Source: a virus
DNA: 36,672 nt
Reading direction: 5' to 3' (one strand)
Virus record (IMG/VR): IMGVR_UViG_3300037245_000820
Span: 1-36,672 of that record
In this document: piece after piece, positions 4,586 to 26,850 of the stretch
Layout: each line of letters begins with the position of its first letter
How positions within the stretch are numbered: position 1 is the stretch's first letter
Notes under the pieces: model-generated
Told to the model about the DNA's origin: nothing
The model's database searches: none
What the model saw: only the letters and a program-made list of their open reading frames with translations
Made by a program: the position numbers and the translations under genes

Positions 4586-5049
4586 TGAGCGATTTTAAGA
4601 ACGGAACTTTTAAATTATTATACATATTTGTAACAGACACCTATTTTCCTATTGGATGCCTTACGAGTAATTCATTTAGCGAACAAGCTGATATGTTAGA
4701 TACTACGACAAGACAAAACGCTGGGGGTTGGAAAACATCAATACCAACGAACCAAAGTTTTAATATATCGTTTAGTGGTTTGATAAGTACAAGTAATAAA
4801 GGCGGTACTATATTAACCTATGATGATTTAAGAATATTAAAGCGAAATAAAACACAAATAAACTGGAAAACTAACAGTGAACAGGCTGGTTTTAGTGATT
4901 TTGGATTGGGATATATCCAATCTTTATCCAATAACGCTGAAGTAGATAGTTTTATAGACTTTAGCTGTGAGATAGTAGGTTATGGTGAACCTGTTACGCA
5001 ATTAGACACGCAAGAGAATTTAAATTACACTTTAAACGTAACGATATAA
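4585..5049 (+). CDS. Second tail-tube-like protein
   Basis: A 154-residue beta-rich protein that resembles the major tail tube protein encoded near the right end of the window. Both start with a short strand (LLYIFVTD here, LLILYVWD there), then a Pro-Ile-x-Cys-Leu-Thr-x-Asn-Ser-x-Ser-Glu motif at about residues 22-33, then a Thr-rich turn. It sits between tail tip and fibre genes, so it may form a specialised ring at the tail tip. Start and stop codons overlap both neighbours by one base, indicating a tightly coupled operon. The tube fold is inferred from the paralog, not shown directly. Confidence 0.65.
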   Translation: MSDFKNGTFKLLYIFVTDTYFPIGCLTSNSFSEQADMLDTTTRQNAGGWKTSIPTNQSFNISFSGLISTSNKGGTILTYDDLRILKRNKTQINWKTNSEQAGFSDFGLGYIQSLSNNAEVDSFIDFSCEIVGYGEPVTQLDTQENLNYTLNVTI

Positions 5050-5735
5050 TGGCACATAAAATAACATACGCTGAAAAAGTAGGTGTAAATCCAAAAGAAA
5101 CTCATATTAACCAAGTGTGGGATGAGGATATGAATGAGATTAAAGATGTTGTAAATACTAATGATGACGAATTAGATGATTTAACTGTTGAAGTAGATGC
5201 AAATACTTTAGATATAATTGATTTACAAGCTGATGTTTCGGATTTAACACCACATAAAGACAAAGTAGGATTCTTTGATTATTCGGATTTAGCAACAGCG
5301 ACAACACCAATAACTATTACAGGAGGTGCGGGGTTTATAGATTTACCAAATGATGAATTAGGGGCGCAAACATTAAAAACATACGCGCCAACGGGTATGA
5401 CTGATGTATGGGATGCAACAGGTGGAGTTTTTGATTGGAGTGAGTTAGTTCTAGGTGATATGATTGATATTAGATTATCGCTTGAATTAGTAACAACCTC
5501 TGTAAACACAGATATAACAGTGGAATTGTTTTTAGGAAGTGCATTCCCTTATACAATACCGTTTATAACAGAATCAAATTTTAAATCTTCTGGTACATAT
5601 CAATTATTAAGATTTAACTCTATGTATATGGGTAACACGGACACTTTGAATAACGGGGGTATATTTAAGGCTTCAGCAAATAACACTTGCACTATTAAGG
5701 TCATAGGTTGGTATTGTAGAATAATAAAAGTTTAA
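5049..5735 (+). CDS. Tail fibre or baseplate protein, short form
   Basis: A 228-residue protein whose first 50 residues match the start of the next, much longer fibre gene: QVWDEDMNEIKDVVNTND here and QVWDTDMNELKETININA there. This shared start is probably the part that binds the tail tip. A short helical linker follows (about 45-75), then a beta-rich domain rich in Thr, Asn and Gly ending in a hydrophobic strand (KVIGWYCRIIKV), consistent with a receptor-binding head. No enzyme motif is visible. Confidence 0.6.
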   Translation: MAHKITYAEKVGVNPKETHINQVWDEDMNEIKDVVNTNDDELDDLTVEVDANTLDIIDLQADVSDLTPHKDKVGFFDYSDLATATTPITITGGAGFIDLPNDELGAQTLKTYAPTGMTDVWDATGGVFDWSELVLGDMIDIRLSLELVTTSVNTDITVELFLGSAFPYTIPFITESNFKSSGTYQLLRFNSMYMGNTDTLNNGGIFKASANNTCTIKVIGWYCRIIKV

Positions 5736-5753
5736 AATAAATATATAAAGCAA

Positions 5754-8042
5754 ATGGCAACATTAAGAATAACTTACAATGATAAATCACACGTTCAACC
5801 GTATGGAACACACGAGATACAAGTGTGGGATACGGATATGAACGAACTAAAAGAAACTATTAATATTAACGCTGACCAAACCGATGAGAATACAGAAAAT
5901 ATTATAGCTCTTACTTCTGGATGGAGAGGTGTTTTATTAATAGCTGATACACCAACTGAAGACGGATTCTATACCGCTGGTGAAAGCGGAACATACACAA
6001 ACGCTGGTGGTTTAGTAATTGATTTAACAGAAGGTGTAAATTATATAAATGTAAGCGGAACACAAACAGTATTTACTAAAACTGTAATTCCTGTTGACAC
6101 TATACCTACTGGAGATATTGCAGAAGGTGAAACTTTATCTGTTAGTGGTGATAAAATAAATGACGTTACAAAATTAAAATCTAATTTAGTGGTCGGTAAA
6201 AATTTATTTGATAAAGATGCAGCTACAATAGGTCAATTCATTTCTAATAGTGGAAGTGTAAGTATAAATGCCACTTATGATTCATCTGATTATATACCAA
6301 TAATTGAGGGGCAAGATTATATATCTAATTGGTTAATGAGATTTACATGTTATTATGATAGTGATAAAAATGTTGTTTCGGGCGGTACAAATTCAGGTGT
6401 AACATCTTTTACACCTCCAGTCGGCGCTTCATTTATTATTGTTTCAATTGCCCATACTGGATTAGATTCTTTTCAATTAGAAAAAGGAATTGCTACAACT
6501 GATTTTGAAAGTTATAAATTAACAATAGTTACAGATGAAAATGAGCCTTTAAAATCTAAAATAGTATTTGATGAAGGTGTTACAAGTGATGAAACTGATT
6601 TCGCTGAAAGAAATTATTATCTATTAAATTTATTTGATTTTGATAATGCAACAATAACAACTGGATTTTTTGTTAATTATGCAAATGGTAATTACGTTGC
6701 AAATGTTTTATATGATGCAACAGGAAAAATAGAATTACCGTCAGATATCACTAAATTAACATTAAGTTTTTTGCATAATATAGCTTTTTATAATTCATCA
6801 GGTGTTTACATTAGTGGTGTTCAGGCTTTTGGTCCTGGTAGCGGAACTGTTGATGTACCTGTAAATGCTAAATATGTTGATTGTACAGTTTTAACAGATA
6901 CAGCAGATATTTTCTATATTGTTGTAGGTGAAACAATAGGAGTTTACCAACCATATACAGTACCTTTTTATAATAAAATGACTAACGCTATTGTTTTTCA
7001 AAGTGAAATTGTGACAGAGGCAGAAGTATTTGAAAGTGTTTGGTTACCTAAAGAAATCTGTATTGCAGTAGATAGACAAGTTGAAATTTACAATAGTCAA
7101 GTTGTATGGGTTGGAAATATTGATAATTATCACTTTGTTTGGTCTGGTATAGGTCATTCAATGGGTAGAAAATGGTATCTTTTAGGTGAGTCTGGCGATG
7201 TAGGTAATCACACATTAACTTTAAAAATATACAATAACGAAAATATTTTATTAGCAACTAAAACTACAACTGTTAAGGTAGTCGCAAACACAGTTACATC
7301 TCCTTTTACGGTAGCTGGGATTGGTGATAGTTTAAGTAATAATAAACCCTGGGCGGGTGAAATTGTGAGTTTAAGCGGTGGAGATATTACTTTTGTAGGT
7401 ACAAGACAAAGTTTGTCTGGTGAAGGTCGTAGTGGAGCTTCAGCAGCTTACTATTTAGGCAATAATAGTTATACTTTTGACGCTACTGGAATTAGTGGAA
7501 TTGATGGGAGAACACAAGATTTAAATCCATTTTTTAACCCCGTTTTAGGCGATGTGGACTATCAATATTATAAAGATAATTATACAAGTCCTAATCCTGA
7601 TGTTTTAATTATTTGGTTAGGTACAAATGGATTAGAGATTGACCCAACTACAAACGCTGGAAATATTAAAACTTTTGTTGATAAAATAAGAGCAACAGGA
7701 GGAGCAACAATAAAAATATTTATTGTTCATACATTATTTAATAGTAATCAGGATGGGATGGGTATAATTGGAACAAGTGGAGTTTATAAATTAAATCAAG
7801 ATTTAAAAGTGTTCAACTTACAAGTTGAATTATACGACTTATTAGAAAGCTATTCAGATTTATATTTAGTGCCAGTTTCAACTTGTCACGATTCAGAATA
7901 TAATTATGGTCAAGTTGTAACTACTGTAAATCCAAGAGCCTCACAAACTGAATTAATACCAAGTGATTATGTACATCCTCAAACACAGGGCTACTTACAA
8001 ATAGCTGATATTATTTATTCAAGTTTAATAGCAAATCAATAA
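5754..8042 (+). CDS. Tail fibre with C-terminal SGNH/GDSL hydrolase domain
   Basis: A 762-residue fibre. The N-terminus shares the QVWDxDMNEL anchor with the preceding gene. The middle holds beta-rich carbohydrate-binding-like stretches with two similar segments (LVVGKNLFDKDAATIGQF and LLNLFDFDNATITTGFF). The last third is an SGNH hydrolase: block I GDSLSNN with Ser526, block III LGTNG with Asn625, and block V DYVH with Asp738 and His741. Such domains often remove acetyl groups or cleave esters on surface polysaccharide, so host capsule or LPS deacetylation is a reasonable inference. The oxyanion glycine of block II is not obvious; GRSGASAAYY may cover it. The gene is preceded by an AT-rich leader. 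Confidence 0.85.
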   Translation: MATLRITYNDKSHVQPYGTHEIQVWDTDMNELKETININADQTDENTENIIALTSGWRGVLLIADTPTEDGFYTAGESGTYTNAGGLVIDLTEGVNYINVSGTQTVFTKTVIPVDTIPTGDIAEGETLSVSGDKINDVTKLKSNLVVGKNLFDKDAATIGQFISNSGSVSINATYDSSDYIPIIEGQDYISNWLMRFTCYYDSDKNVVSGGTNSGVTSFTPPVGASFIIVSIAHTGLDSFQLEKGIATTDFESYKLTIVTDENEPLKSKIVFDEGVTSDETDFAERNYYLLNLFDFDNATITTGFFVNYANGNYVANVLYDATGKIELPSDITKLTLSFLHNIAFYNSSGVYISGVQAFGPGSGTVDVPVNAKYVDCTVLTDTADIFYIVVGETIGVYQPYTVPFYNKMTNAIVFQSEIVTEAEVFESVWLPKEICIAVDRQVEIYNSQVVWVGNIDNYHFVWSGIGHSMGRKWYLLGESGDVGNHTLTLKIYNNENILLATKTTTVKVVANTVTSPFTVAGIGDSLSNNKPWAGEIVSLSGGDITFVGTRQSLSGEGRSGASAAYYLGNNSYTFDATGISGIDGRTQDLNPFFNPVLGDVDYQYYKDNYTSPNPDVLIIWLGTNGLEIDPTTNAGNIKTFVDKIRATGGATIKIFIVHTLFNSNQDGMGIIGTSGVYKLNQDLKVFNLQVELYDLLESYSDLYLVPVSTCHDSEYNYGQVVTTVNPRASQTELIPSDYVHPQTQGYLQIADIIYSSLIANQ

Positions 8043-12258: not shown

Positions 12259-12304
12259 ATCGGTTCAATTTATTGAATGTTTGTTAATAGTAGTTGTAAA
12301 ACAT

Positions 12305-12520
12305 TTAATCTACGTAATCTTTTGGTATATATTTAAGTGATGTTAAAACTCCAATCAACCAGTATATATGTAAGTTATGGCTAAAAATAGTAATACCATC
12401 ATTATTAGCAACTTCGTAACTATTTTCAGTTATTACAACATTACAAAGGTTATTTGCATAACTATTTTTTTCCATTCTTTTAAATCCATTTCTCTTTAAA
12501 AATCCTATTACACTTTTCAT
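12305..12520 (-). CDS. Conserved small phage protein
   Basis: 71 residues of alpha/beta character with a basic start (FLKRNGFKRM), two strands (NVVITENSYEVANNDG) and a HIYWLIGVLTSLKYI segment. This architecture occurs in many Bacteroidota phages and prophages, as far as I can recall, with no assigned function. It lies in a run of short minus-strand genes, each with its own AT-rich leader. Confidence 0.55.
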   Translation of the reverse strand: MKSVIGFLKRNGFKRMEKNSYANNLCNVVITENSYEVANNDGITIFSHNLHIYWLIGVLTSLKYIPKDYVD

Positions 12521-12567
12521 AATTTATTTTGTATTTAATATTAAACGTTAAACAACTCCAAATATAA

Positions 12568-12768
12568 TTAAGCACTATTTAATCCTTTTTCAATCAGTTT
12601 CTTTTTCTGATATTCAACTATTTTCATTAACGCAAACTCTTCTGCTAATTTTACTATTTGATTTGACTCATATCCAATTCTAAAACTTCCATTTTCACCA
12701 AAATTATCTTGTAATATTAAAGAGTCTGGGTCTGGGTGTCTTTTTTGTATAAATTTTTCAAATGTCAT
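12568..12768 (-). CDS. Small hypothetical protein
   Basis: 66 residues: a short N-terminal helix, a Gly/Asn turn region (NFGENGSFRIGYES) and an amphipathic C-terminal helix with a lysine cluster (EYQKKKLIEKG). No recognised family. It is the last gene of the cassette-like array; a 113-bp inverted-repeat element lies about 50 bases upstream of its start. Confidence 0.5.
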   Translation of the reverse strand: MTFEKFIQKRHPDPDSLILQDNFGENGSFRIGYESNQIVKLAEEFALMKIVEYQKKKLIEKGLNSA

Positions 12769-12816
12769 ATTATTTTATTTTTAGTTTATATTCTCGTGCC
12801 TAATCATATTTTGGCT

Positions 12817-12929
12817 AGTTGGTAGTGATTGCTGTTTACTTTATCTGTTTACGGTAATATTGTCAGTAATCTAAGAGAAGTGACAATTTATAGTTTAAAT
12901 TCATTACCTCAGCAAAACCACAACCAACT
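12817..12929 (-). repeat. Cassette element E1 (113 bp, inverted-repeat ends)
   Basis: Coding-strand ends AGTTGGTTGTGGTTTTGCTG and the complement of AGTTGGTAGTGATTGCTG pair over about 17 positions with a two-base bulge. It starts 17 bases after the stop of the upstream small gene, and the sequence between is TTTATTGAG-like, as in elements E4 and E6. The middle has GTTTACTTT, also found in E4, E5 and the repeat-rich region near 11 kb. Confidence 0.75.
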
Positions 12930-12946
12930 CTCAATAAACAAAATGC

Positions 12947-13123
12947 TTACTTTTCTACCTTAAAATGAAATCCAGTAATCAATATCTCTTCATCTAAATT
13001 TATTCTACTTTCAATAAGTTCGTGTACACTTTGTTTTCCGTTTAAATCTTTCGGTAATTTAACAGTGGTAATTCCCATACCATCAATTATTACTTTACCA
13101 TTTCCGTCTTTGTAAATTTGCAT
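12947..13123 (-). CDS. Small hypothetical protein, 58 residues
   Basis: Read by hand, ATG to TAA. The product begins MQIYKDGNGKVIIDGMGITT and ends with an acidic helix and a basic tail. The start IYKDGNGK resembles MTRIYKDEDKIGIW of another 54-residue gene near 23.7 kb, suggesting a shared small beta fold. It sits between a short solo element and full element E1, as expected for a cassette. Confidence 0.5.
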   Translation of the reverse strand: MQIYKDGNGKVIIDGMGITTVKLPKDLNGKQSVHELIESRINLDEEILITGFHFKVEK

Positions 13124-13170
13124 AATATTTATATTTAATTAATAATTCTTTTTTTTTACTCGCAATTGGT

Positions 13171-13201
13171 TTATTGTGTAAAGTTGATAAGTAATTAAAG
13201 G
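13171..13201 (-). repeat. Short solo cassette boundary S1
   Basis: On the coding strand CTTTAATTACTTATCAACTT followed by TACACAATAA. The TAA stop of the upstream gene lies inside it. The CAACTnnACACAATAA part matches the downstream end of the long elements, so it looks like an element reduced to one end. Confidence 0.65.
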
Positions 13202-13494
13202 TTTGGCTTTATTGCTTCCTTGTATATCTCATAAACTCTTTCTGTTGAGTAAAGTTTTCCTTCTTTTTGCCAACACTGAGAGGTTACGTATGTAAATTTA
13301 TCTTTTACCCAACCCTCGAAAGTCGGTTTGTCTTTGTCCTTTAACTGCTCACAACTATTTGGTAAAAGTGATTTAACTAAGTCTTTTAACTCTTCTGTTC
13401 TTATACTAACACCTGTTAATTCCTCTTCATCAAGTCCTAAATTGCTAATTTCGTATTGTAATTGTGCTATTTTTTGTATTATTTTATTTTTCAT
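13195..13494 (-). CDS. Mosaic small protein with SCEQLK seam
   Basis: 99 residues: an N-terminal helical module (about 1-45), a central SCEQLKDKDKP seam (about 47-57) and a C-terminal module (TFEGWVKDKFTYVTSQCW to VYEIYKEAIKPNL). The seam and the DNA behind it (TTTAACTGCTCACAACTA on the plus strand) recur in two other genes of the array with different flanking modules. The last codons and stop are made from solo element S1. Function unknown. Confidence 0.6.
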   Translation of the reverse strand: MKNKIIQKIAQLQYEISNLGLDEEELTGVSIRTEELKDLVKSLLPNSCEQLKDKDKPTFEGWVKDKFTYVTSQCWQKEGKLYSTERVYEIYKEAIKPNL

Positions 13495-13536
13495 AATTTA
13501 TCTTGTATTTAATTAAACCTCTTTTACCAGCAAAAC

Positions 13537-13652
13537 AGTTGGTAGTGAGTTTTGTTGTCTTTATACTTTTGCGCTAATGCTCTCAATACTATTTTCTTAA
13601 AAGTCTTATAAAGTATCAAAGAGTAAAGGTTTCAAAAAGCCCACAACCAACT
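13537..13652 (-). repeat. Cassette element E2 (116 bp)
   Basis: Coding-strand ends AGTTGGTTGTGGGCTTTTTG and AAAACTCACTACCAACT can pair over about 15 positions, with G-U pairs only possible on the coding strand. It begins four bases after the stop of the upstream gene. The interior is not similar to that of E1, so only the ends are conserved. Confidence 0.75.
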
Positions 13653-13656
13653 CCGT

Positions 13657-13884
13657 TTAACCGCAATTAAAAGTTTTTACAACCTTATATTTTGGTGGTC
13701 TACTATTTGTTCTATCCATCTCAATTAACTCTTCAGCTTTTTCAACACTTATATTTGTATTAATACACATTCCTTCCTCGCTTCTTATTTGTAACCAAAA
13801 TGGGAAATACCATCGTTTTTTTTGTACTTCAAACCCACCAAAATTGTCTGTTACTATTCTATATTGTCTTATACATATTTTCAT
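13657..13884 (-). CDS. Small hypothetical phage protein
   Basis: 75 residues. A beta-rich first half with KKRWYFPFWLQIRSEEG (about 22-38), then a helix starting ISVEKAEELIEMD and a short basic strand (KYKVVKTFNCG). The W-x-x-PFW-x-Q block followed by S-x-x-x-A-x-x-L recurs in phage accessory proteins of Bacteroidota, from memory. No function known. Confidence 0.55.
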   Translation of the reverse strand: MKICIRQYRIVTDNFGGFEVQKKRWYFPFWLQIRSEEGMCINTNISVEKAEELIEMDRTNSRPPKYKVVKTFNCG

Positions 13885-13919
13885 AATCTATTGTTTTATT
13901 TATTTTTAAATTCGGTTAA

Positions 13920-13947
13920 ACTGTAAAGTTGTAAGTAATTAAAGGTT
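13920..13947 (-). repeat. Short solo cassette boundary S2
   Basis: Coding-strand CTTTAATTACTTACAACTTT followed by ACAG, nearly the same as S1. The upstream gene's TAA stop is again part of it. Confidence 0.6.
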
Positions 13948-14232
13948 AATCATTTCATTAATGTATTTTTGCGATACTTCTTGAAAACTCATAATCTTAT
14001 TTTCTTGTGTAAATTTATTGTGTTCAATCTTTCTTATATTATAACAGTCCATCCAAAACATAAAAGTTGGTATTTCTTTTTCCTTTAACTGCTCACAACT
14101 AGCTGGTATGGTTAAAGCTAAATTTAGTTTATCTTCTAACCAATTTATATATCTCTGTTGTGAAGACTTAATAAATAGTAAGTCATTACCAGTTTCTTTA
14201 ATGTAATCTTCTCTAAATTTATTTCTATACAT
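13939..14232 (-). CDS. Mosaic small protein with SCEQLK seam
   Basis: 97 residues. N-terminal module MYRNKFREDYIKETGNDL to a QQRYINWLEDKLNLAL helix (about 26-42), seam ASCEQLKEKEIP (about 45-56), then a C-terminal module with W-x-x-x-Y and FQEVSQKYINEMINL. The seam DNA is identical over 18 bases to two other genes in the array. The C-terminal helix resembles the end of the 99-residue protein two genes downstream (TERVYEIYKEAI). Stop codon inside S2. Confidence 0.6.
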   Translation of the reverse strand: MYRNKFREDYIKETGNDLLFIKSSQQRYINWLEDKLNLALTIPASCEQLKEKEIPTFMFWMDCYNIRKIEHNKFTQENKIMSFQEVSQKYINEMINL

Positions 14233-14282
14233 AATCTATAATTTTTATTAATTTTTAAATTGCTCTAACCATACCAAAATAA

Positions 14283-14355
14283 AGTTGGCAATTAATACAG
14301 CAATGGTATTCTGTTTTGGTTTATGTGGAATAAATATGCTGTACTAATGGCAACT
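14283..14355 (-). repeat. Cassette element E3, compact hairpin (73 bp)
   Basis: AGTTGGCAATTAATACAGCA (14283-14302) and TGCTGTACTAATGGCAACT (14337-14355) form a near-perfect stem of about 17 pairs with one bulge, enclosing 34 bases. The AGTTG ends match the other elements, but the stem is longer and the interior shorter. Confidence 0.7.
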
Positions 14356-14391
14356 ATGTAAATAAAATATAAAGCATTCTAAGCCTTATTT

Positions 14392-14610
14392 CTAACCTAA
14401 TTTAGCAAGTGAACTATCAATGTATTCGGCTTCTTTTTTAAGTTCGCTTAATTTAAGATGTCTATCTTCTTTTGTTCTTCCGTGCAAGTTCCTTAAAATT
14501 TCGTTTTGAATTTCAAGGTTAAAACTCATAAGTCTTTCATAAACTTCTTCAGTAAATTGGTCTTGTTCTGTTCTTACTGGTTCACACGCTTTCATTTTTT
14601 CTTCGTACAT
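14392..14610 (-). CDS. Small hypothetical helical protein
   Basis: 72 residues, almost all helical and charged. It starts MYEEKMKACEPVRTEQDQF; the ACEP segment sits where SCEQL lies in the related genes, then a helix-loop-helix (EEVYERLMSFNLEIQ, LKKEAEYIDSSLAKLG). It may be a shortened relative that lacks the N-terminal module. Function unknown. Confidence 0.5.
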   Translation of the reverse strand: MYEEKMKACEPVRTEQDQFTEEVYERLMSFNLEIQNEILRNLHGRTKEDRHLKLSELKKEAEYIDSSLAKLG

Positions 14611-14674
14611 AATTTTCTTTGTTTTTAATTATTAAAATTTATTTATTCTACTCTTTACTATTTTATTTACTATA

Positions 14675-14846
14675 AGTTGGTAGTGAGTTTGGTTTACTTT
14701 ATGTATTTACAAAAACTTTTTACCGGTAGTTACCGCTTAAATAATTAATCTATTAGAACACAGCTAGTTGTGTTTTTATAATTTACCGTTAATTACCGGA
14801 TAACTTGCAATCAACATTCATTTCCTCCAAAAGCCCACAACTAACT
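14675..14846 (-). repeat. Cassette element E4, long form (172 bp)
   Basis: Same ends as E5 (GTGAGTTTGGTTTACTTT on one side, CCTCCAAAAGCCCACAAC on the other) but about 60 bases longer. The extra part holds nested inverted repeats: TACCGGTAGTTACCG facing TACCGTTAATTACCGG, and AACACA-GCTAGT-TGTGTT at 14757-14774. It may be two fused elements or one with an inserted hairpin. Confidence 0.7.
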
Positions 14847-14862
14847 CTCAATAAAAGTATAA

Positions 14863-14979
14863 CTAAATCCTTTCAATGTCTACACTCCCATTCATCGCAT
14901 TTCCGTTTGCGATTGTTTCTGCTTCTTCAAAACTGTTGCAGTCGGCTATCCAACTGCCATTTAAATATACTTGATACAT
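14863..14979 (-). CDS. Micro-protein, 38 residues
   Basis: Read by hand, ATG to TAG. Product begins MYQVYLNGSWIADCNSFEEA and ends in a short acidic-polar tail. It has a beta hairpin start and one helix, like a minimal version of the small beta-alpha proteins nearby. It is flanked by elements E4 and E5, the cassette arrangement. Without comparison data the coding call is moderate. Confidence 0.4.
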   Translation of the reverse strand: MYQVYLNGSWIADCNSFEEAETIANGNAMNGSVDIERI

Positions 14980-15025
14980 AATTTATAAATTTATTGTTAA
15001 TATTCCGTTATTCTTTTATTGTGTT

Positions 15026-15137
15026 AGTTGGTAGTGAGTTTGGTTTACTTTCTGTATTTAGAGTAACTGTTTTTCACACGTTGTAAGTGTTTTTCATAAA
15101 AACTAAATTCATTCCCTCCAAAAGCCCACAACCAACT
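15026..15137 (-). repeat. Cassette element E5 (112 bp)
   Basis: Coding-strand start GGAGTTGGTTGTGGGCTTTT followed by GGAGGGAATGAATTTAG; end AAACTCACTACCAACT then AACACAATAA. The two ends pair over 11 of 12 positions (AGTTGGTTGTGG with TCACTACCAACT). It is the clearest copy and shares its first and last 30 bases with E4. Confidence 0.8.
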
Positions 15138-15156
15138 CCGTATAAAAAGCAAAAAA

Positions 15157-15378
15157 CTATTTACTAATTCTATCAGCTTCTTTTGTCATTTCTTTTACCG
15201 TCATTATATATCCTTGCTTACAGTGAAAAGTGTCTATAAAAAAATCATCATCAATATCGCTTGGGTCAAACCCAAATCTTTTTTTATATTCATCTTCAAC
15301 TTTTTGTAAAAGGCTAAAATAACGTTGTTTTGCTCTTAAAGTCTTATCTATTATTTCTTGAAATTTTGTGTCTTTCAT
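15157..15378 (-). CDS. Small hypothetical protein
   Basis: 73 residues: an N-terminal helix with basic residues (FQEIIDKTLRAKQRYFSLLQ), a central FGFDPSDIDDDFFIDTFHC acidic loop and a short C-terminal helix. The Asp-rich loop could bind a metal, but there is no known motif. It is enclosed by elements E5 and E6. Confidence 0.5.
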   Translation of the reverse strand: MKDTKFQEIIDKTLRAKQRYFSLLQKVEDEYKKRFGFDPSDIDDDFFIDTFHCKQGYIMTVKEMTKEADRISK

Positions 15379-15400
15379 TTTTTTCGTTTTTTATACTGTT

Positions 15401-15512
15401 AGTTAATCTGTCATTTTTGTTGGTGTAACAACCTCAACGTTTAACGTGTTTGTAAAAGCTGTTTCTTTACTCTCGGTAACTGTTTCTAATCCCTCAAAAT
15501 CGGCAGTTAACT
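15401..15512 (-). repeat. Cassette element E6, diverged (112 bp)
   Basis: Same length as E5 but with changed ends: AGTTAACTGCCG on one side, AGTTAATCTGTC on the other strand. The TTTATTGAG lead-in shared with E1 and E4 is kept. Placed directly after the DNA methyltransferase-like gene. Confidence 0.55.
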
Positions 15513-15555
15513 CTCAATAAAATTAACCTTTTAAAATTTGCCTTTGCGCTTTGTT

Positions 15556-16161
15556 TTAGCACCATTGTGTAGCCATAGCTTGTGCAATACCTTTAAAGGT
15601 TTTAGAAGCTACTTTAGGGCATCTTGTTTTCTTATCATTTAATCCTGTGTAAGCGTTTTTACTTGTGCTACTTGGTAAATAAGTTCCCTTCTTCTCTACA
15701 ATATTTGTAGGTTCTAATTTTGGTAAACCTTTTAGCCATAATCTTGTTTTTTTACTAAATGGATGCCCGAAATGGTAAGGCTCTATTTCTTGTGTCCATT
15801 GTGGCATATCAAAAACTTTTAAAGAAACAGGGTTTTCTACCGCTATTTTATCACAATCAGCGTTTATAAACTGCATAAAAAACGCTTTTGCTTCCACTCC
15901 TTTTTGGTATCTAATTGGATCAATGTTTCCTGCTGTTGGGTATAATCTACAAGCACCTGCTTTACTTAAAAACGTACAAGGTGGAAAAGCAATTATCATA
16001 TCCCATTTTTCTTTTAATAGTTCTGTAACATCTTGTTGTAAATGCCATTCGGGGTGTCCTCCAGAGCATTCCATAATATCACAGCTAAAAGCATCGTGAC
16101 CTCTTAACCTTAATTCTATTGTTACTGTTTGGCTTTCTTCACAAGCTACTAATATTTTCAT
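15556..16161 (-). CDS. DNA cytosine methyltransferase-like protein
   Basis: 201 residues. FPPCTFLS (59-66) is the PPC catalytic-loop motif of C5-cytosine methyltransferases and VENPVS (108-113) corresponds to the ENV motif. CEESQTVTIELRLRGHDAFS at the start matches the cofactor-binding motif region. It is much shorter than the usual 300-400 residues and has no visible target-recognition domain, like other compact phage methylases. It could protect phage DNA from restriction or make a modified base. The ATG overlaps the stop of the upstream 51-residue gene (ATGA). Confidence 0.75.
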   Translation of the reverse strand: MKILVACEESQTVTIELRLRGHDAFSCDIMECSGGHPEWHLQQDVTELLKEKWDMIIAFPPCTFLSKAGACRLYPTAGNIDPIRYQKGVEAKAFFMQFINADCDKIAVENPVSLKVFDMPQWTQEIEPYHFGHPFSKKTRLWLKGLPKLEPTNIVEKKGTYLPSSTSKNAYTGLNDKKTRCPKVASKTFKGIAQAMATQWC

Positions 16162-16313
16162 AAGTATAGTATTTCATTTTTTAATTCAATTATATCTTTT
16201 GCCTTTTTATAGTGTCTATAAATATGTTTTTTATACATAAATCCAAACATAACTTTGTAATTAATCCATTTATTTAGACTTTCTTTTCCTTCTGTTTTTT
16301 CTGCAAGTTTCAT
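16158..16313 (-). CDS. Small basic protein coupled to the methyltransferase
   Basis: 51 residues read by hand (MKLAEKTEGKESLNKWINYK..., ending in a NEILYL tail). It is basic and aromatic (FMYKKHIYRHYKKAKD). Its TGA stop overlaps the ATG of the methyltransferase-like gene, which supports real translation. It might be an accessory or DNA-binding subunit of that enzyme, but this is inference from the coupling alone. Confidence 0.5.
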   Translation of the reverse strand: MKLAEKTEGKESLNKWINYKVMFGFMYKKHIYRHYKKAKDIIELKNEILYL

Positions 16314-16410
16314 TGTGTTTTTTAATATTTTTAGTTTGTTTAATATCTAATTGTTCAATATTTTCATTTAAACTTTCTTCTATTTCTTTTAGTTTTTCAT
16401 CGCTATACAT
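16270..16410 (-). CDS. Possible small protein overlapping the next gene
   Basis: 46 residues read by hand: MYSDEKLKEIEESLNENIEQ, then a very basic tail (CRKNRRKRKSK). Its last 44 bases overlap the following gene in another frame. The N-terminal acidic helix followed by a basic tail is plausible, but the tail may only reflect the overlapping frame. Low confidence. Confidence 0.3.
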   Translation of the reverse strand: MYSDEKLKEIEESLNENIEQLDIKQTKNIKKHNETCRKNRRKRKSK

Positions 16411-16478
16411 TTCGCTGTTTTAAATTTTCAATTTAATTTCCCTTTCTAAATTTCTAAAAGGCTTATTTTATCGTGTAC

Positions 16479-16594
16479 AGTTAGTATGCAATTTAGGTTT
16501 GACTTGCTTTTTTACGATACTTTAGTAATAATCAAAGGTTTGTAGTGTTTTTTACTACTTTGCTCGCATTCCTCCTAAAAAGCTACTAACTCCA
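16479..16594 (-). repeat. Possible cassette element E7 merging into a gene
   Basis: AGTTAGTAGC (coding strand, ending near 16592) and the opposite-facing AGTTAGTATGC near 16479 lie about 110 bases apart, the same spacing as the intact elements. The outer end lies inside the last codons of the upstream gene (GGA GTT AGT AGC, then TTTTTAGGAGGAATG), which match E5's start GGAGTTGGTTGTGGGC and GGAGGGAATG. Confidence 0.45.
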
Positions 16595-16761
16595 AATAAC
16601 TTTGATTGCTCAGTGTGGTAATCATTTATAAGTTCAATAATATCTCGTGTTTTAAACTCCCACCAATCCATTTCTTCCATCCAAAGTTGGTCTTTTAAAT
16701 CAATGTCATATCCTTTTGTATTAAGCCACTCGCCTATTTTATTTAATTCTTTATCTGTCAT
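16555..16761 (-). CDS. Shortened mosaic small protein (QSKLFGV seam)
   Basis: 68 residues. The N-terminal module (GEWLNTKGYDIDLKDQLW to MEEMDWWEF) and helix DIIELINDYHTE lead into QSKLFGVSSFLGGMRAK. QSKLFGV is shared with the 94-residue protein near 18.5 kb, with 23 identical DNA bases. There the protein continues with a further 45-residue module that is missing here. The final codons look like element sequence, so this gene was probably cut short by recombination at the seam. Confidence 0.55.
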   Translation of the reverse strand: MTDKELNKIGEWLNTKGYDIDLKDQLWMEEMDWWEFKTRDIIELINDYHTEQSKLFGVSSFLGGMRAK

Positions 16762-16790
16762 CTTTTTTGTTTTTAATTCGCAAACAAGGT

Positions 16791-16819
16791 TATTCGTGTT
16801 AGTTGTTAAGTAATTAAAT
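16791..16819 (-). repeat. Short solo cassette boundary S3
   Basis: Coding-strand ATTTAATTACTTAACAACTA followed by ACACGAATAA, close to S1 and S4. Here the upstream stop codon lies a few bases before it rather than inside. Confidence 0.6.
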
Positions 16820-16825
16820 GTTTTA

Positions 16826-17113
16826 TTAATTGCCTGGTTTTTGTTTTCGGTAACTTTTGTTCATTTCCTTAACTATTTCTGTTTTATTAATGTATGCTTT
16901 TCCTATCCTATAAAAAGACATATTTTCAAATTCATCGAAATCTGTTTTGTATTTTTCATTTAACTGCTCACAACTAGAGCGTATAACAAAATTTTCACCA
17001 TATTCTTCAATATCGTTAGCTAGTAAAACAACCATAGCGTCATAACTAAGTCCTTTTCTAATTCCCTTCATAAATTCATCTATTCTATTTTCAATATCTT
17101 TTCTTGTTTTCAT
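16826..17113 (-). CDS. Mosaic small protein with SCEQL seam
   Basis: 95 residues. N-terminal helical module (RKDIENRIDEFMKGIRKGL, then SYDAMVVLLANDIEEYGENF), seam RSSCEQLNEKYKTDF (about 46-60), then a C-terminal module with FYRIGKAYINKTEIVKEMNK. Third carrier of the 18-base seam TTTAACTGCTCACAACTA. The C-terminal module is unlike those of the other two carriers. Function unknown. Confidence 0.6.
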   Translation of the reverse strand: MKTRKDIENRIDEFMKGIRKGLSYDAMVVLLANDIEEYGENFVIRSSCEQLNEKYKTDFDEFENMSFYRIGKAYINKTEIVKEMNKSYRKQKPGN

Positions 17114-17184
17114 ATTTATTTATTTTAGTGTTAAATTCTTAAAAATCTTGCCATACTCACAGGTAGTTGCAGGTAATATGCCAC

Positions 17185-17472
17185 TTAGTAAAAGTCGTTT
17201 ATTAGCCAACGATAACAAGTTCTAAACCCTATAATAAAATTTATTTTTTTTTCACATTCTTTAACATCTCCAAATATTACATCAACTAGTCTGTAAACCT
17301 CAATATCACTTTCTTTTTTATTTGGCAAACTTCCAGCAACTCCAAATAAAAGTGATTTAACAACTATTACATCAGTAATATCATTAAACAACTCTCCATC
17401 TATAAGATCAAGGTTATATCCTTTTTCTTTTAATTCATCGTAAATAATTTCTTTAACTTCTTCTTTAGTCAT
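17185..17472 (-). CDS. Mosaic small protein with LLFGV seam
   Basis: 95 residues. N-terminal module TKEEVKEIIYDELKEKGYNL, then a DGELFNDITDVIVV stretch, seam VKSLLFGVAGSLPNKKE (about 54-70), C-terminal module ending in FRTCYRWLINDFY. The end closely resembles FEKCYRWIRDKEK of the 94-residue protein near 18.5 kb, so the C-terminal modules are related while the N-terminal ones are not. The aromatic CYRW box may be a binding surface. Role unknown. Confidence 0.6.
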   Translation of the reverse strand: MTKEEVKEIIYDELKEKGYNLDLIDGELFNDITDVIVVKSLLFGVAGSLPNKKESDIEVYRLVDVIFGDVKECEKKINFIIGFRTCYRWLINDFY

Positions 17473-17515
17473 AATACTTGTTTTTGTATTTAATTAAATC
17501 TCTTTTATTCGTGTT

Positions 17516-17628
17516 AGTTGGTAGTGATATTTGTGTATTAATCTTAAAACCAACCAAAATTATTCTATTCCTTTGTTATTCTTATACTTGCTGTTTACCA
17601 TTCATTGTCTCAAAAACCTCAACCAACT
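17516..17628 (-). repeat. Cassette element E9 (113 bp), close twin of E10
   Basis: About 93% identical by eye to 18705-18816 over its whole length, unlike other members, which match mainly at their ends. Ends AGTTGGTTGAGG and ATCACTACCAACT pair. Contains CCAACCAAAATTATTC; on the coding strand this reads TAATTTTG, a -7-like TAnnTTTG box. Any plus-strand reading frame here is not considered a gene. Confidence 0.8.
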
Positions 17629-17644
17629 ATGCGCAGCCGTTATT

Positions 17645-17839
17645 TTATCCATCTACAACGGTTAAAACCCAATTATCATTAATATGAGTATTTCCTACAC
17701 AATCAAACCAATCTTTTTTATCATTCAGGTTAACCACTCTAACCATATTTTTTTTATCAGCTTCTTTTATAACATATAATTCATCATCTTCAATAAATCT
17801 TAATTTTGTGTTTTTAGGTAATTGATTCCATTTAGCCAT
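17645..17839 (-). CDS. Small hypothetical beta-rich protein
   Basis: 64 residues: MAKWNQLPKNTKLRFIEDDE, then alternating strands with VRVVNLNDKKDWFDCVG and a final NDNWVLTVVDG. The pattern suggests a small SH3-like barrel, but no family is recognised. It directly follows a 56-residue gene by four bases and ends 17 bases before element E9. Confidence 0.5.
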   Translation of the reverse strand: MAKWNQLPKNTKLRFIEDDELYVIKEADKKNMVRVVNLNDKKDWFDCVGNTHINDNWVLTVVDG

Positions 17840-17843
17840 TTTA

Positions 17844-18014
17844 TTAAAATTTTATTTGTTTAACTGTTTTAATATCGCACTCAACCCATTTTGGGAATGT
17901 TTCTCTATGTTTTAAAAATATTCTAAACCCTCCAGTCTTATTTCCTTGTAAAATAGAATCACTCTCAATCCATTTCTGAGTTAAGAGTGTTTTTCCTTTA
18001 AATAATATATTCAT
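17844..18014 (-). CDS. Small hypothetical protein, 56 residues
   Basis: Read by hand: MNILFKGKTLLTQKWIESDS, then a strand-rich stretch containing KTGGFRIFLKHRETFPKWVE and a basic end. Glycine turns between strands suggest a compact beta fold. Tight spacing to the genes on both sides (a few bases) supports translation as part of a three-gene unit with the 63-residue and 64-residue genes. Confidence 0.55.
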   Translation of the reverse strand: MNILFKGKTLLTQKWIESDSILQGNKTGGFRIFLKHRETFPKWVECDIKTVKQIKF

Positions 18015-18015
18015 A

Positions 18016-18207
18016 CTATAAATTTTTTATTGTTTCAATTAAATTTTCAGTTTCATTTATTTCATTAACTAAATCTTCTTTAAGGTTTGTAAATTCTTTA
18101 GTTTCCCAAACTTTAATATCTGATTGGTTTAAACATTCGTTTGTGTAATTTAATTGACCTTTTAAAGATTCTAAGTTTTCGATTTGTATTTTTAATTGAG
18201 TTGTCAT
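18016..18207 (-). CDS. Small coiled-coil protein
   Basis: 63 residues starting MTTQLKIQIENLESLKGQLN, nearly all helical with heptad Leu/Ile spacing, ending ETENLIETIKNL. A longer reading from 18234 is possible, but the promoter -7 box at 18232-18239 lies over that ATG, so the ATG at 18207 is the better start. Likely a small coiled-coil partner or adaptor protein. No specific function visible. Confidence 0.6.
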   Translation of the reverse strand: MTTQLKIQIENLESLKGQLNYTNECLNQSDIKVWETKEFTNLKEDLVNEINETENLIETIKNL

Positions 18208-18231
18208 AATATCTTTGTTTTTAATTATACT

Positions 18232-18262
18232 CAAATATACAACGCTTTTTCAATGTACACAA
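18232..18262 (-). promoter_or_regulatory. Bacteroidota-type promoter
   Basis: Minus strand: TTG, 20 bases, then TATATTTG, matching the -33/-7 layout. The GTTGTATATTTG core is identical to the early promoter at 27466. It gives a leader of about 18 bases before the ATG at 18207. Confidence 0.65.
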
Positions 18263-18339
18263 GTATAAACAAATAAACTTACGAAAACTTTACGAAACTT
18301 ATTTAAAAACAATTCGCCAACGCTCAAACAACGGTTGCA

Positions 18340-18363
18340 CGGTAAAGTTGGTATTCATTACCG
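18340..18363 (-). terminator. Small hairpin after the 94-residue gene
   Basis: CGGTAA (18340-18345) pairs with TTACCG (18358-18363); the loop contains AGTTGGT, the cassette boundary word. It lies two bases past the stop codon. No U run follows on the coding strand, so termination is uncertain. It may be a remnant cassette boundary. Confidence 0.35.
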
Positions 18364-18365
18364 TT

Positions 18366-18650
18366 TTATTTTTCTTTGTCTCTTATCCAACGATAACATT
18401 TTTCAAAACCTTTATTAATAGCATTCCAACTTAATACATCTGTATTGTGAGAATATTTATCAGCCTCTTTTCTAGATTCGATAATCATTTCTTTTTCTGT
18501 CGGTAACGTAATGCCAACTCCAAATAACTTTGATTGCTTTTTAAGTTGTTGTTTATAATGGTCTTGTATATCTGTTAGCAATTCTTTATAATCACTTTTC
18601 ATATACAAACAACCGTGTTTTTTTAAAATATTTATTATCTCTTTATCCAT
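18366..18650 (-). CDS. Mosaic small protein, full-length QSKLFGV type
   Basis: 94 residues. N-terminal module DKEIINILKKHGCLYMKSDY then a YKELLTDIQDHYKQQLKK helix, seam QSKLFGVGITLPTEKE (about 40-55), C-terminal module with a DVLSWNAINKGFEKCYRWIR box. It shares a 23-base DNA seam with the truncated gene near 16.6 kb and its C-terminal box with the gene near 17.3 kb, so it links both groups. Function unknown; the family appears modular. Confidence 0.6.
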   Translation of the reverse strand: MDKEIINILKKHGCLYMKSDYKELLTDIQDHYKQQLKKQSKLFGVGITLPTEKEMIIESRKEADKYSHNTDVLSWNAINKGFEKCYRWIRDKEK

Positions 18651-18704
18651 CTTTATTTATTTAATATGTTAATATTCCTATTCGCAACCAATGTTATTGT
18701 GTAC

Positions 18705-18816
18705 AGTTGGTAGTGATATTTGTGTATTAATCTTAAAACCAACCAAAATTATTCTATTCCTTTGTTTTTCTTGTACTTGTAATTTACCATTCATTGCCTC
18801 AAAAACCTCAACCAAA
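18705..18816 (-). repeat. Cassette element E10 (112 bp), close twin of E9
   Basis: Near-copy of E9 with about eight base changes by eye. One outer end has drifted (ACCAAATCC in place of ACCAACT), weakening the terminal helix. It is followed by CCAAATAAC, which echoes the LFGV seam sequence of nearby genes. Confidence 0.8.
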
Positions 18817-18828
18817 TCCAAATAACCG

Positions 18829-19011
18829 TTAAAAAATATCCCATAAAGCTAATTTGTATGCTTTAAAACAGTCACTAAATGAAACTTCTTTATTGTATTT
18901 CTTCCAAAGCCAATGAATAGCTACATCGCTTGTGACACTTAATACACCATTTACATCAACCCACATTTCATTTAATTCTTTTGCCATTTTCTTAATTGAT
19001 ACAGTTTTCAT
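18829..19011 (-). CDS. Small hypothetical protein
   Basis: 60 residues: MKTVSIKKMAKELNEMWVDV, VLSVTSDVAIHWLWKKYNKE and a FSDCFKAYKLALWDIF end rich in aromatics. The C-terminal helix with C-x-x-A-Y resembles the CYRW box of the mosaic proteins, so it may be a distant relative. The gene lies between E10 and S4. Confidence 0.5.
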   Translation of the reverse strand: MKTVSIKKMAKELNEMWVDVNGVLSVTSDVAIHWLWKKYNKEVSFSDCFKAYKLALWDIF

Positions 19012-19050
19012 TTTTATATATTTTTAGATTAATAATACTCAAGTAATTTT

Positions 19051-19076
19051 ATTGTGTCAGTTGCAAGTAATTAAAG
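19051..19076 (-). repeat. Short solo cassette boundary S4
   Basis: Coding-strand CTTTAATTACTTGCAACTGA followed by CACAATAA. The upstream gene's TAA lies inside. It is the rightmost clear member of the family. Confidence 0.6.
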
Positions 19077-19699: not shown

Positions 19700-20215
19700 T
19701 TAATTTATTTTATTTAATGCTTTTTGATATTCTAAATGAGCTTCATACTCTGTATCAAATGATCCTAAGTGATTTTCTTTACCATCAATATAAATTCTCG
19801 CTCTCCATTTTTTACAGCTTCGACTAATAGAAACACCTAAGTATTTACTTGAGCCACCTTTTTTATCTTTAGATGCGTTTTTTCTTTGCGTTGTTAATTG
19901 TAGATTTTCAACCCTGTTATCTGTTTTAATATTATTTATGTGATCTACAACTATTTTCATACCGCTAGGTATATGGTTTAAAAATGTTATAGCTACAAGT
20001 TTATGTATATCCCAAGCTCTTTTACCACCATCTTTATATAAATAAATAGAATAGTAACCCCTACCATTTACATATAATGTACGTATTCTTTCACTAACTG
20101 TAAAAGTTTTTGTTTGCTTATGTTTAACTACTCTTTTTAAACTTTTTAATCTACCTAAATTACTGATTTGATAAAAACCCTCGTAACCTGGAATATCTTT
20201 AAATTCTTCTTTCAT
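19700..20215 (-). CDS. HNH homing endonuclease with NUMOD4 and AP2-like domains
   Basis: 171 residues: NUMOD4 start (FKDIPGYEGFYQISNLGRLK, about 5-24), HNH core with DIHKLVA (69-75), VDHINNIKTDN (90-100) and RVENLQL (101-107), and an AP2-like DNA-binding end (SKYLGVSISRSCKKWRARIY, about 123-142, and HLGSFDTEYEAHLEY). All catalytic His and Asn residues are present, so it is probably active. Free-standing genes of this type spread by cutting related genomes lacking them. It sits between the replication operon and the small-gene array. Confidence 0.92.
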   Translation of the reverse strand: MKEEFKDIPGYEGFYQISNLGRLKSLKRVVKHKQTKTFTVSERIRTLYVNGRGYYSIYLYKDGGKRAWDIHKLVAITFLNHIPSGMKIVVDHINNIKTDNRVENLQLTTQRKNASKDKKGGSSKYLGVSISRSCKKWRARIYIDGKENHLGSFDTEYEAHLEYQKALNKIN

Positions 20216-26068: not shown

Positions 26069-26284
26069 TTATCGGTTATGTCTTTGGTTAAATTTCCAGT
26101 CTTTTAATTCTTTATCAGCTTTCTTTTTAGCTTTTCTAAGCTGTTTGAAAACTGGATCATCTTTGTATAACTCATAATCATCAAATAATACTTCAGCTTT
26201 GATGAATTGTAGTTTAAGTTCCGTTGGTATCTCGTGGTAATGTTCCTGTAACATTGTTACGTACATCTTTTTAGTCGCTCCCAT
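26069..26284 (-). CDS. Small helical protein beside the annealing protein
   Basis: 71 residues, helical and highly charged: MYVTMLQEHYHEIPTELKLQ, then VLFDDYELYKDDPVFKQLRK and AKKKADKELKDWKFN. TAATG overlap with the Rad52-type gene upstream. Probably co-translated; may assist the annealing protein, by context only. Confidence 0.6.
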   Translation of the reverse strand: MGATKKMYVTMLQEHYHEIPTELKLQFIKAEVLFDDYELYKDDPVFKQLRKAKKKADKELKDWKFNQRHNR

Positions 26285-26850
26285 TATTTAGTAAATTTAC
26301 CCCAATTAAAACGAGTTGCACCATTATTATCTTGTGCCGCTAAACCTGTTATTTTACCATCTTTAAATTCGCTTATCCATTTCCACTCTTTAAGTTTTAA
26401 ATCCCAAGTAGCTTTTGGATATTTTTTACCGCTAATAGTTTTTAACTCCCATTCATTAGCCAGTAGTTTAACCGATATAACAGGGTAGTCATATAATTCT
26501 CTACCTATACCCCAATTAAAACCAGCACGTTTAAAACTGTCACTTGCCTCACCTTTTTGTTTCTCAGCCATTGATTCAGTTCCAGCATCCCATTTCCAAA
26601 CCCACAAAGGATCAATATCTATTCCAGTTCCATCAGTTACATTTATTCCTATTCCGCAATAAATAACATTCTTAATTTCTTTATGGTTACGTTGCCAACA
26701 ATCAGAACCGCAAACATCATCAAGTCTATTCATATCAACCCTAGCGTCTTTATAAGCCAGTATAGTAGCATAACCACCTTTATTAATACTTTGCACTCTA
26801 AAATCAATATCCTCAATTGTTAAAGGCTCTTTTAATTTCTTTAAATCCAT
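26284..26850 (-). CDS. Rad52-type single-strand annealing protein
   Basis: 188 residues. The Rad52/22 (Sak-like) core is visible: VQSINKGGYATILAYKDARV (about 19-38), NRLDDVCGSDCWQRNHKEI (about 41-59), and WKWDAGTESMAEKQKGEASD to a SFKRAGFNWGIGRELYDYPV block (about 85-124). Such proteins anneal complementary strands during phage recombination and replication. It sits with SSB, DUF1367 and an HNH nuclease, the usual partners. Near the start of the early operon, so expressed early. Confidence 0.88.
   Translation of the reverse strand: MDLKKLKEPLTIEDIDFRVQSINKGGYATILAYKDARVDMNRLDDVCGSDCWQRNHKEIKNVIYCGIGINVTDGTGIDIDPLWVWKWDAGTESMAEKQKGEASDSFKRAGFNWGIGRELYDYPVISVKLLANEWELKTISGKKYPKATWDLKLKEWKWISEFKDGKITGLAAQDNNGATRFNWGKFTK

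Follow-up and report, generated by a model that had tools for sequence, protein, structure and literature searches.

attC sites are reported to be 57-142 nt long, and the opposite strand of a canonical site recombines more rarely, at the other R box (PMC2727003). Such sites have been reported in virulent phages, one of them P12002L (Qi et al., 2023; PMC9892861), whose attC2 recombined with attI1 through IntI1 (PMC9892861). Here we analyse a viral stretch of 36,672 nucleotides (IMG/VR record IMGVR_UViG_3300037245_000820, positions 1 to 36,672; hereafter the window), on whose minus strand, between ~12.3 and 18.8 kb, about 20 small genes alternate with AGTT...AACT units and paired boxes tile that region. 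We consider it likely, with a probability of roughly three in four, that a virus of marine Flavobacteriia carries here a cassette array of the integron type, the units of which are moved at an AAC trinucleotide by a tyrosine recombinase that the host would supply. The relatives of the phage and the sites themselves point to Flavobacteriia as the probable host, and the portal protein is 47-51% identical to those of Flavobacterium 11b and Cellulophaga phi10:1.

Paired boxes in attC order

Exact TCACTACCAACT right ends occur six times in the window, only on the minus strand (12817-18716), each with a AGTTGGTTGWGG-type left end 112-172 bp upstream. A hairpin scan, in which the AGTT..AACT arms were required to form a strong duplex and shuffled sequence served as comparison, returned 11 minus-strand candidates, of which the array holds 10 (each shuffle gave 0-1); the remaining array units were recovered by a chain search whose sole criteria are GTT, AAC and pairing. 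The elements of an earlier note on this DNA (at least eight, mostly 112-116 bp, with variants of 73 and 172 bp) are real, but the paired AGTTG.../...CAACT units number 14-15 and their lengths fall for the most part into two tight classes, 110-116 bp (~112) and 170-177 bp (~174), with unrelated contents. The four short solo ends of that note dissolve, since 13182, 13927, 16479, 16801, 17165 and 18346 are right arms whose left arm lies in the upstream coding sequence; the left arm AGTTGTGAGCAGTTAAAGG (14100), for example, pairs with the right arm CCTTTAATTACTTACAACT (13927). The end helix itself pairs as had been described (11 of 12 positions in the best copy), with a single U.U mismatch.

A second helix encloses the gene: the stretch after each right end is complementary to the stretch before the next left end, as in CAGTTTAACCG...CGGTTAAACGG, which enclose gene 13657-13884. 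The stretch previously taken for a common leader after the right end does exist, but it is the first arm of this gene-specific helix. Mutually complementary R'' and R' boxes, carrying AAC and GTT, flank the site, and the inverted boxes L'' and L' are separated from them by spacers. The resulting order R''-L''...L'-R' with a GTT/AAC core is that of integron attC sites, and along the array it reads L''-gene-L'-R'-element-R''. An integron reading, set aside while GTT..AAC had looked inverted, was revived when this second helix and the array of Polaribacter phage P12002S were found.

Both helices are specific for their own partners. In the window the mean duplex energy of the gene-enclosing L''/L' helix is -17.1 kcal/mol versus -7.2 kcal/mol with permuted partners, and that of the element-enclosing R'/R'' helix is -16.7 versus -9.2 kcal/mol, with 0 of 20,000 permutations as good in either case; the true partner ranks first in 12 of 13 gene-enclosing and 11 of 14 element-enclosing helices. 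The same permutation test gave a like result for both helices of phage G010. The chain score of the window array is 161.5, compared with at most 19.0 in 40 shuffles. Among 26 distinct R boxes from four phages, pair 4 is Watson-Crick in 24 and pair 5 in 22, with several pair types; GTT/AAC is itself imposed by the search. The L stems have no bulges clear by eye; the folding strand is the stronger of the two by virtue of its G.T pairs.

The architecture recurs in other phages, with chain scores of 199.9 (G010), 101.4 (L088), 65.1 (L062) and 63.7 (G001) for IMG/VR phages and of 202.3 (P12002S) and 117.3 (P12002L) for isolated Polaribacter phages, against mostly <25 in shuffles. G002 has individual units in common with the window and a weak chain (17.5); G001, G002 and G010 are possibly fragments. 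Non-coding units are common to phages in which their flanks differ; one such pair, between G010 and G002, has 90% identity. In G010, complete open reading frames (ORFs) for small membrane proteins also lie inside single R'-R'' units of 172-173 bp (L027, 1383-1554 and 4226-4398). Flavobacterium phage 11b has a weak chain of paired boxes near an HNH gene (L113, 179-3013; 46.7 versus 17-22 in shuffles), possibly an old array, and its signal as a whole is suggestive only. Chain signals in phi10:1 and on the plus strand of the window were rejected, as shuffles score alike, and the patterns TCACTACCAACTNNACAC and AGTTNGTTGTNGGCTTTNGG gave mostly chance loci (L008, L010-L018, L105-L110). No P12002-type pattern was found in IMG/VR, and searching published phages with single array proteins gained little.

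Reshuffled cassettes and bacterial counterparts

Contigs L088 and L069 contain blocks that are 97-100% identical, in the orders A..B C..D..E..F and A D B..E C F, respectively; block D spans 387 bp with zero mismatches. About 10 internal block edges can be placed, all of them at the AAC of the R''-L'' core to within a few chance-identical letters, the left end of A and the right end of F (the contig end) standing outside this count. A one-base indel misled the automatic edge finder at the left edges of A, C and E, and the AAC edge of blocks C and E was taken by eye from the printed sequences. P12002L and P12002S likewise differ at three R''-L'' cores, two of the edges lying at AAC. The proposal of the earlier note that recombination elements delimit gene cassettes is borne out in that the terminal helices covary, the units separate different genes in other phages, and the block edges of related phages fall at unit ends.

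It is unlikely that the boxes merely supply short homology for general recombination by a phage annealing protein of the Erf/Rad52 type, in the manner of T4-type promoter-stem-loop (PeSL) cassettes, rather than sites for a site-specific recombinase. An Erf-like annealing protein is indeed encoded in the window (26284-26850), the L boxes are alike within each phage, and one P12002 breakpoint lies inside a 5-nt L'' match. Annealing, however, needs neither helix nor strand asymmetry, the L088/L069 breakpoints fall at 3-5 nt of TAAC(G) despite differing flanking L boxes, and bacteria have dense arrays with adjacent recombinases of the integron/XerA class.

These bacterial arrays came to light with a pattern derived from P12002S, which matches sites in Winogradskyella, Tamlana, Hyunsoonleella and Algibacter. 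A slightly wider pattern finds 75 and 80 sites in two Winogradskyella genomes (G013 and G018), with 0 for the reversed-pattern control in every genome; the strict element pattern finds nothing in the bacterial genomes. At least one attC-like site is present in 52 of 120 sampled Flavobacteriaceae genomes, and the bacterial sites have loops of 115-121 bp, with genes in the canonical place. In G013 and G018 the sites form long rows of one orientation that resemble superintegrons.

Recombinases similar to IntI and XerA have attC-like sites close by. In the clearest case (L127; G018:C50:4000-14000, Winogradskyella vidalii), a recombinase gene (4724-5959) precedes three cassettes whose sites lie at 3824-3945, 2827-2948 and 2145-2265; the neighbourhoods of L126 and L131 are similar, and sites also lie near recombinases at L129 and L130. 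Such a neighbourhood looks like an integron platform of Flavobacteriaceae with an integrase that lacks the IntI-specific insert: the L127 enzyme scores above the cut-off of NF040815 ('tyrosine recombinase/integron integrase') and below that of TIGR02249, the matches to which skip profile positions ~182-240, taken as the IntI-specific insert.

Phage and bacterial sites differ in polarity. At all loci inspected, bacterial genes are mostly encoded on the strand that does not carry the pattern, whereas phage genes lie on the pattern strand, and phage cassette genes therefore run in the opposite direction to bacterial ones. In 38 of 40 cases from phages and in all 12 from bacteria the pattern strand forms the stronger L stem, so that the stronger strand is the coding one in the phage array and the non-coding one in bacterial chromosomes. 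This asymmetry bears on the RNA structure that the earlier note suggested, taken here as helices of a polycistronic transcript (acting in processing, stability or regulation) without a role in DNA recombination. Although the helices covary, the phage array has its stronger stems on the coding strand and R'-R'' units lie at the 3' ends of genes, all 12 bacterial sites are stronger on the non-coding strand and related phages reorder whole cassettes with edges at the AAC core; the folding strand thus follows the site and not transcription, which disfavours an RNA function as the common denominator. An Rfam 15 scan of the window at the gathering score gave 0 matches, and we dropped this explanation as quite improbable. 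A mobile element of the miniature inverted-repeat transposable element type, multiplied between genes by terminal inverted repeats, as the word mobile in the earlier note might imply, would account for near-identical units of 111-113 bp, two copies each in the window and in G001, that are differently flanked, but is very improbable and was rejected, because most copies preserve pairing in stems of differing sequence, every gene is enclosed by a second helix of its own, coding sequence occupies many of the units, and target-site duplications were not noticed by eye (no dedicated test was made).

The two cores and the array layout

On the folded strand, L'' would pair with L' and R'' with R', so that R''-L'' and L'-R', the two antiparallel cores, would come to lie together as they do in a folded attC. 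A tyrosine recombinase could then exchange strands at the AAC of the R''-L'' core (between A and AC on the phage coding strand), whereby whole units would move. Unlike in a canonical attC, the gene sits within the L''/L' loop or across the L'-R' core, in reverse relative to bacterial cassettes. In less frequent events at the L'-R' core, C-terminal halves of proteins would be swapped; the rarer recombination of the opposite strand in canonical attC sites would explain such occasional swaps at GTT.

The two cores differ in their relation to genes. ORFs cross 33 of 69 L'-R' (GTT) cores versus 4 of 73 R''-L'' (AAC) cores (p = 6e-9), and their rarity across AAC fits cassette boundaries at that core. 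Proteins encoded across GTT are modular there, the N- or the C-terminal half being common to proteins that do not have the other half in common. A G010 gene and a P12002L gene have only the N-terminal half in common (72% homology, from -6 of AAC to +3 of GTT), and gene 18366-18650 of the window and a P12002S gene only the C-terminal half (41% over 56 residues). Three window genes have a common C-terminal half starting SCEQL and no detectable similarity in the N-terminal half; this start is partly the R' box itself and is weaker evidence than the P12002L case. The reading phase at GTT varies, and swaps would sometimes break the frame. The loops of core-crossing genes measure ~180 bp, so that a unit drawn as a circle of ~355 bp has its two cores at nearly opposite points.

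The array comprises the following features, all on the minus strand.

12293-18817: cassette array of alternating R'/R'' intervals (elements) and L''/L' intervals (genes); chain score 161.5 with 28 paired intervals (18705-12292)
18705-18817: R'-R'' unit, 113 bp, non-coding, degenerate left end ATTTGG; 94% identical to 17516-17628; added to the array by hand, outside the chain-search result
18366-18650: 94-residue gene crossing the GTT core at 18518; C-terminal half related to Polaribacter phage P12002S
18346-18519: R'-R'' unit, 174 bp, codes the C-terminal half of gene 18366-18650; hairpin scan and partner pairing
17629-18345: L''-L' interval with small ORFs 17645-17839, 17844-18014 and 18016-18234; L stem -20.8 kcal/mol
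17516-17628: R'-R'' unit, 113 bp, non-coding; G010 has a unit of 78% identity
17165-17341: R'-R'' unit, 177 bp, codes the C-terminal half of gene 17185-17472; hairpin scan and partner pairing
16801-16975: R'-R'' unit, 175 bp, codes the C-terminal half of gene 16826-17113; hairpin scan and partner pairing
16479-16591: R'-R'' unit, 113 bp, codes the last 11 residues of gene 16555-16761; hairpin scan and partner pairing
15513-16478: L''-L' interval with a DNA methyltransferase gene (15556-16161; PHROG 757) and small ORFs; L stem -19.1 kcal/mol
15401-15512: R'-R'' unit, 112 bp, non-coding, weak stem; partner pairing and chain search
15157-15378: 73-residue gene between L'' GTATAAAAAACGAAAAAA and L' TTTTTTGCTTTTTATAC; chain search
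15026-15137: R'-R'' unit, 112 bp, non-coding; exact ends, hairpin scan
14675-14846: R'-R'' unit, 172 bp, non-coding, internal insertion; exact ends, chain search
14283-14355: R'-R'' unit, 73 bp; hairpin scan and partner pairing
13927-14100: R'-R'' unit, 174 bp, codes the C-terminal half of gene 13939-14232; hairpin scan and partner pairing
13537-13652: R'-R'' unit, 116 bp, non-coding; phage G002 has a unit of 91% identity between other flanks
13182-13356: R'-R'' unit, 175 bp, codes the C-terminal half of gene 13195-13494; hairpin scan and partner pairing
12817-12929: R'-R'' unit, 113 bp, non-coding; exact ends, hairpin scan
12293-12556: weaker R'-R'' unit at the array end, spans gene 12305-12520; chain search

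The unit at 14675-14846 may have arisen by insertion into a 112-bp unit; its extra part has the palindrome AACACAACTAGCTGTGTT and ACCGG/CCGGT arms. An HNH endonuclease gene lies immediately upstream of the array (19700-20215), and P12002S also has an HNH gene, inside a cassette (2776-3216 of L026).

Taking the two cores together, we tentatively propose that integron sites have here been opened up and placed inside genes, such that one core would shuffle genes and the other protein halves, with an insert-less integron recombinase of Flavobacteriia possibly driving both; this wider picture we hold as somewhat less probable than an even chance.

Comparison with known systems

Several observations weigh against an integron-type array. 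R boxes of the window (GTTGGTT, GTTGTGA, GTTGGCA, GTTGCTG, GTTAGTA and similar) depart from the strict consensus GTTRRRY/RYYYAAC, and its L''-L' intervals of 176-968 bp exceed the reported range of attC lengths. No tyrosine recombinase (PF00589) was found in G000, G001, G002 or G010, some of which are possibly fragments, and the host enzymes similar to IntI and XerA have no IntI-specific insert and stay under the integron-integrase cut-off. The shuffled orders were seen in relatives, neither in the window nor in a near-identical sister, and the third P12002L/P12002S breakpoint lies ~11 nt into L'', off the AAC. Between phages that are less closely related, 18 homology edges lie no further than 6 nt from a core, versus 6.3 expected (0 of 1000 rotations), an enrichment that is modest and noisy.

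Because both the strict GTTRRRY consensus and the site length are departed from, we keep the window sites apart from canonical attC and call them attC-like and probably attC-derived. The boxes of the P12002S array also deviate from strict GTTRRRY, and its units (116-118 bp) and the sites of bacterial chromosomes (115-121 bp) have lengths within the attC range; the boxes form a series from bacteria (TTATACACGGTGTTG) through P12002S (TTTATACGGTGTTG) and G010 (TTATGCGGAGTTAAC) to the window (TTATACGGAGTTGG and TTATTGAGAGTTGG). The diverged boxes of the window itself are presumed to be active; that they work like integron sites is suggested by the relatives and by the shared architecture. Site-specific recombination would be the cause of the reshuffling, and the recombinase is attributed to the host because the phages carry none.

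An array of this type would give phages of an abundant group of marine bacteria a concrete route to the rapid turnover of small accessory genes. It would also represent a form of attC with genes inside the site, which length-limited detection is expected to miss, and suggests that integron sites are able to serve in the shuffling of protein domains. Finally, it draws attention to Flavobacteriaceae as a family with integron-like arrays and candidate recombinases, in which few complete integrons had been reported (a passage of PMC9024848 names only one Bacteroidetes species).

Among known systems, the T4-type PeSL cassettes to which the elements had first been likened also feature small early-type genes, stem-forming intergenic units and hypervariable gene content. 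The window units differ in having covarying double helices in attC order, edges at a fixed trinucleotide core and no promoter; the sole Bacteroidota-type promoter consensus in the array, at 18262, lies in interval 17629-18345, outside the R'-R'' units (phage-specific promoters could still be present), and the analogy gives way to that with integron attC. In shufflons, the recombinase Rci exchanges alternative C-terminal coding segments bounded by inverted sequences, which is reminiscent of the array. The array differs in having no conserved 19-bp sfx-type repeat and no recombinase gene beside it, and inversion was not seen. Sedentary chromosomal integrons, such as the superintegrons of Vibrio, have in common with the Winogradskyella chromosomes their dense arrays of similar sites, but the recombinases near the Flavobacteriaceae sites are XerA/IntI-like, without the IntI-specific insert and under the TIGR02249 cut-off, and the phages carry none.

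Integrase-less attC arrays (clusters of attC sites lacking integrases, CALINs), including that of P12002L (PMC9892861), differ in that the genes of the window occupy or cross the attC loop (176-968 bp, not ~117 bp) and are reversed relative to the site, the R'-R'' interval is often just a 112-bp non-coding unit, and the R boxes stray from strict GTTRRRY. With these arrays the window nevertheless has in common the box order, the GTT/AAC cores, the unpaired spacers, the co-oriented cassettes, the strand-asymmetric stems and, in its relatives, cassette edges at the AAC/GTT core.

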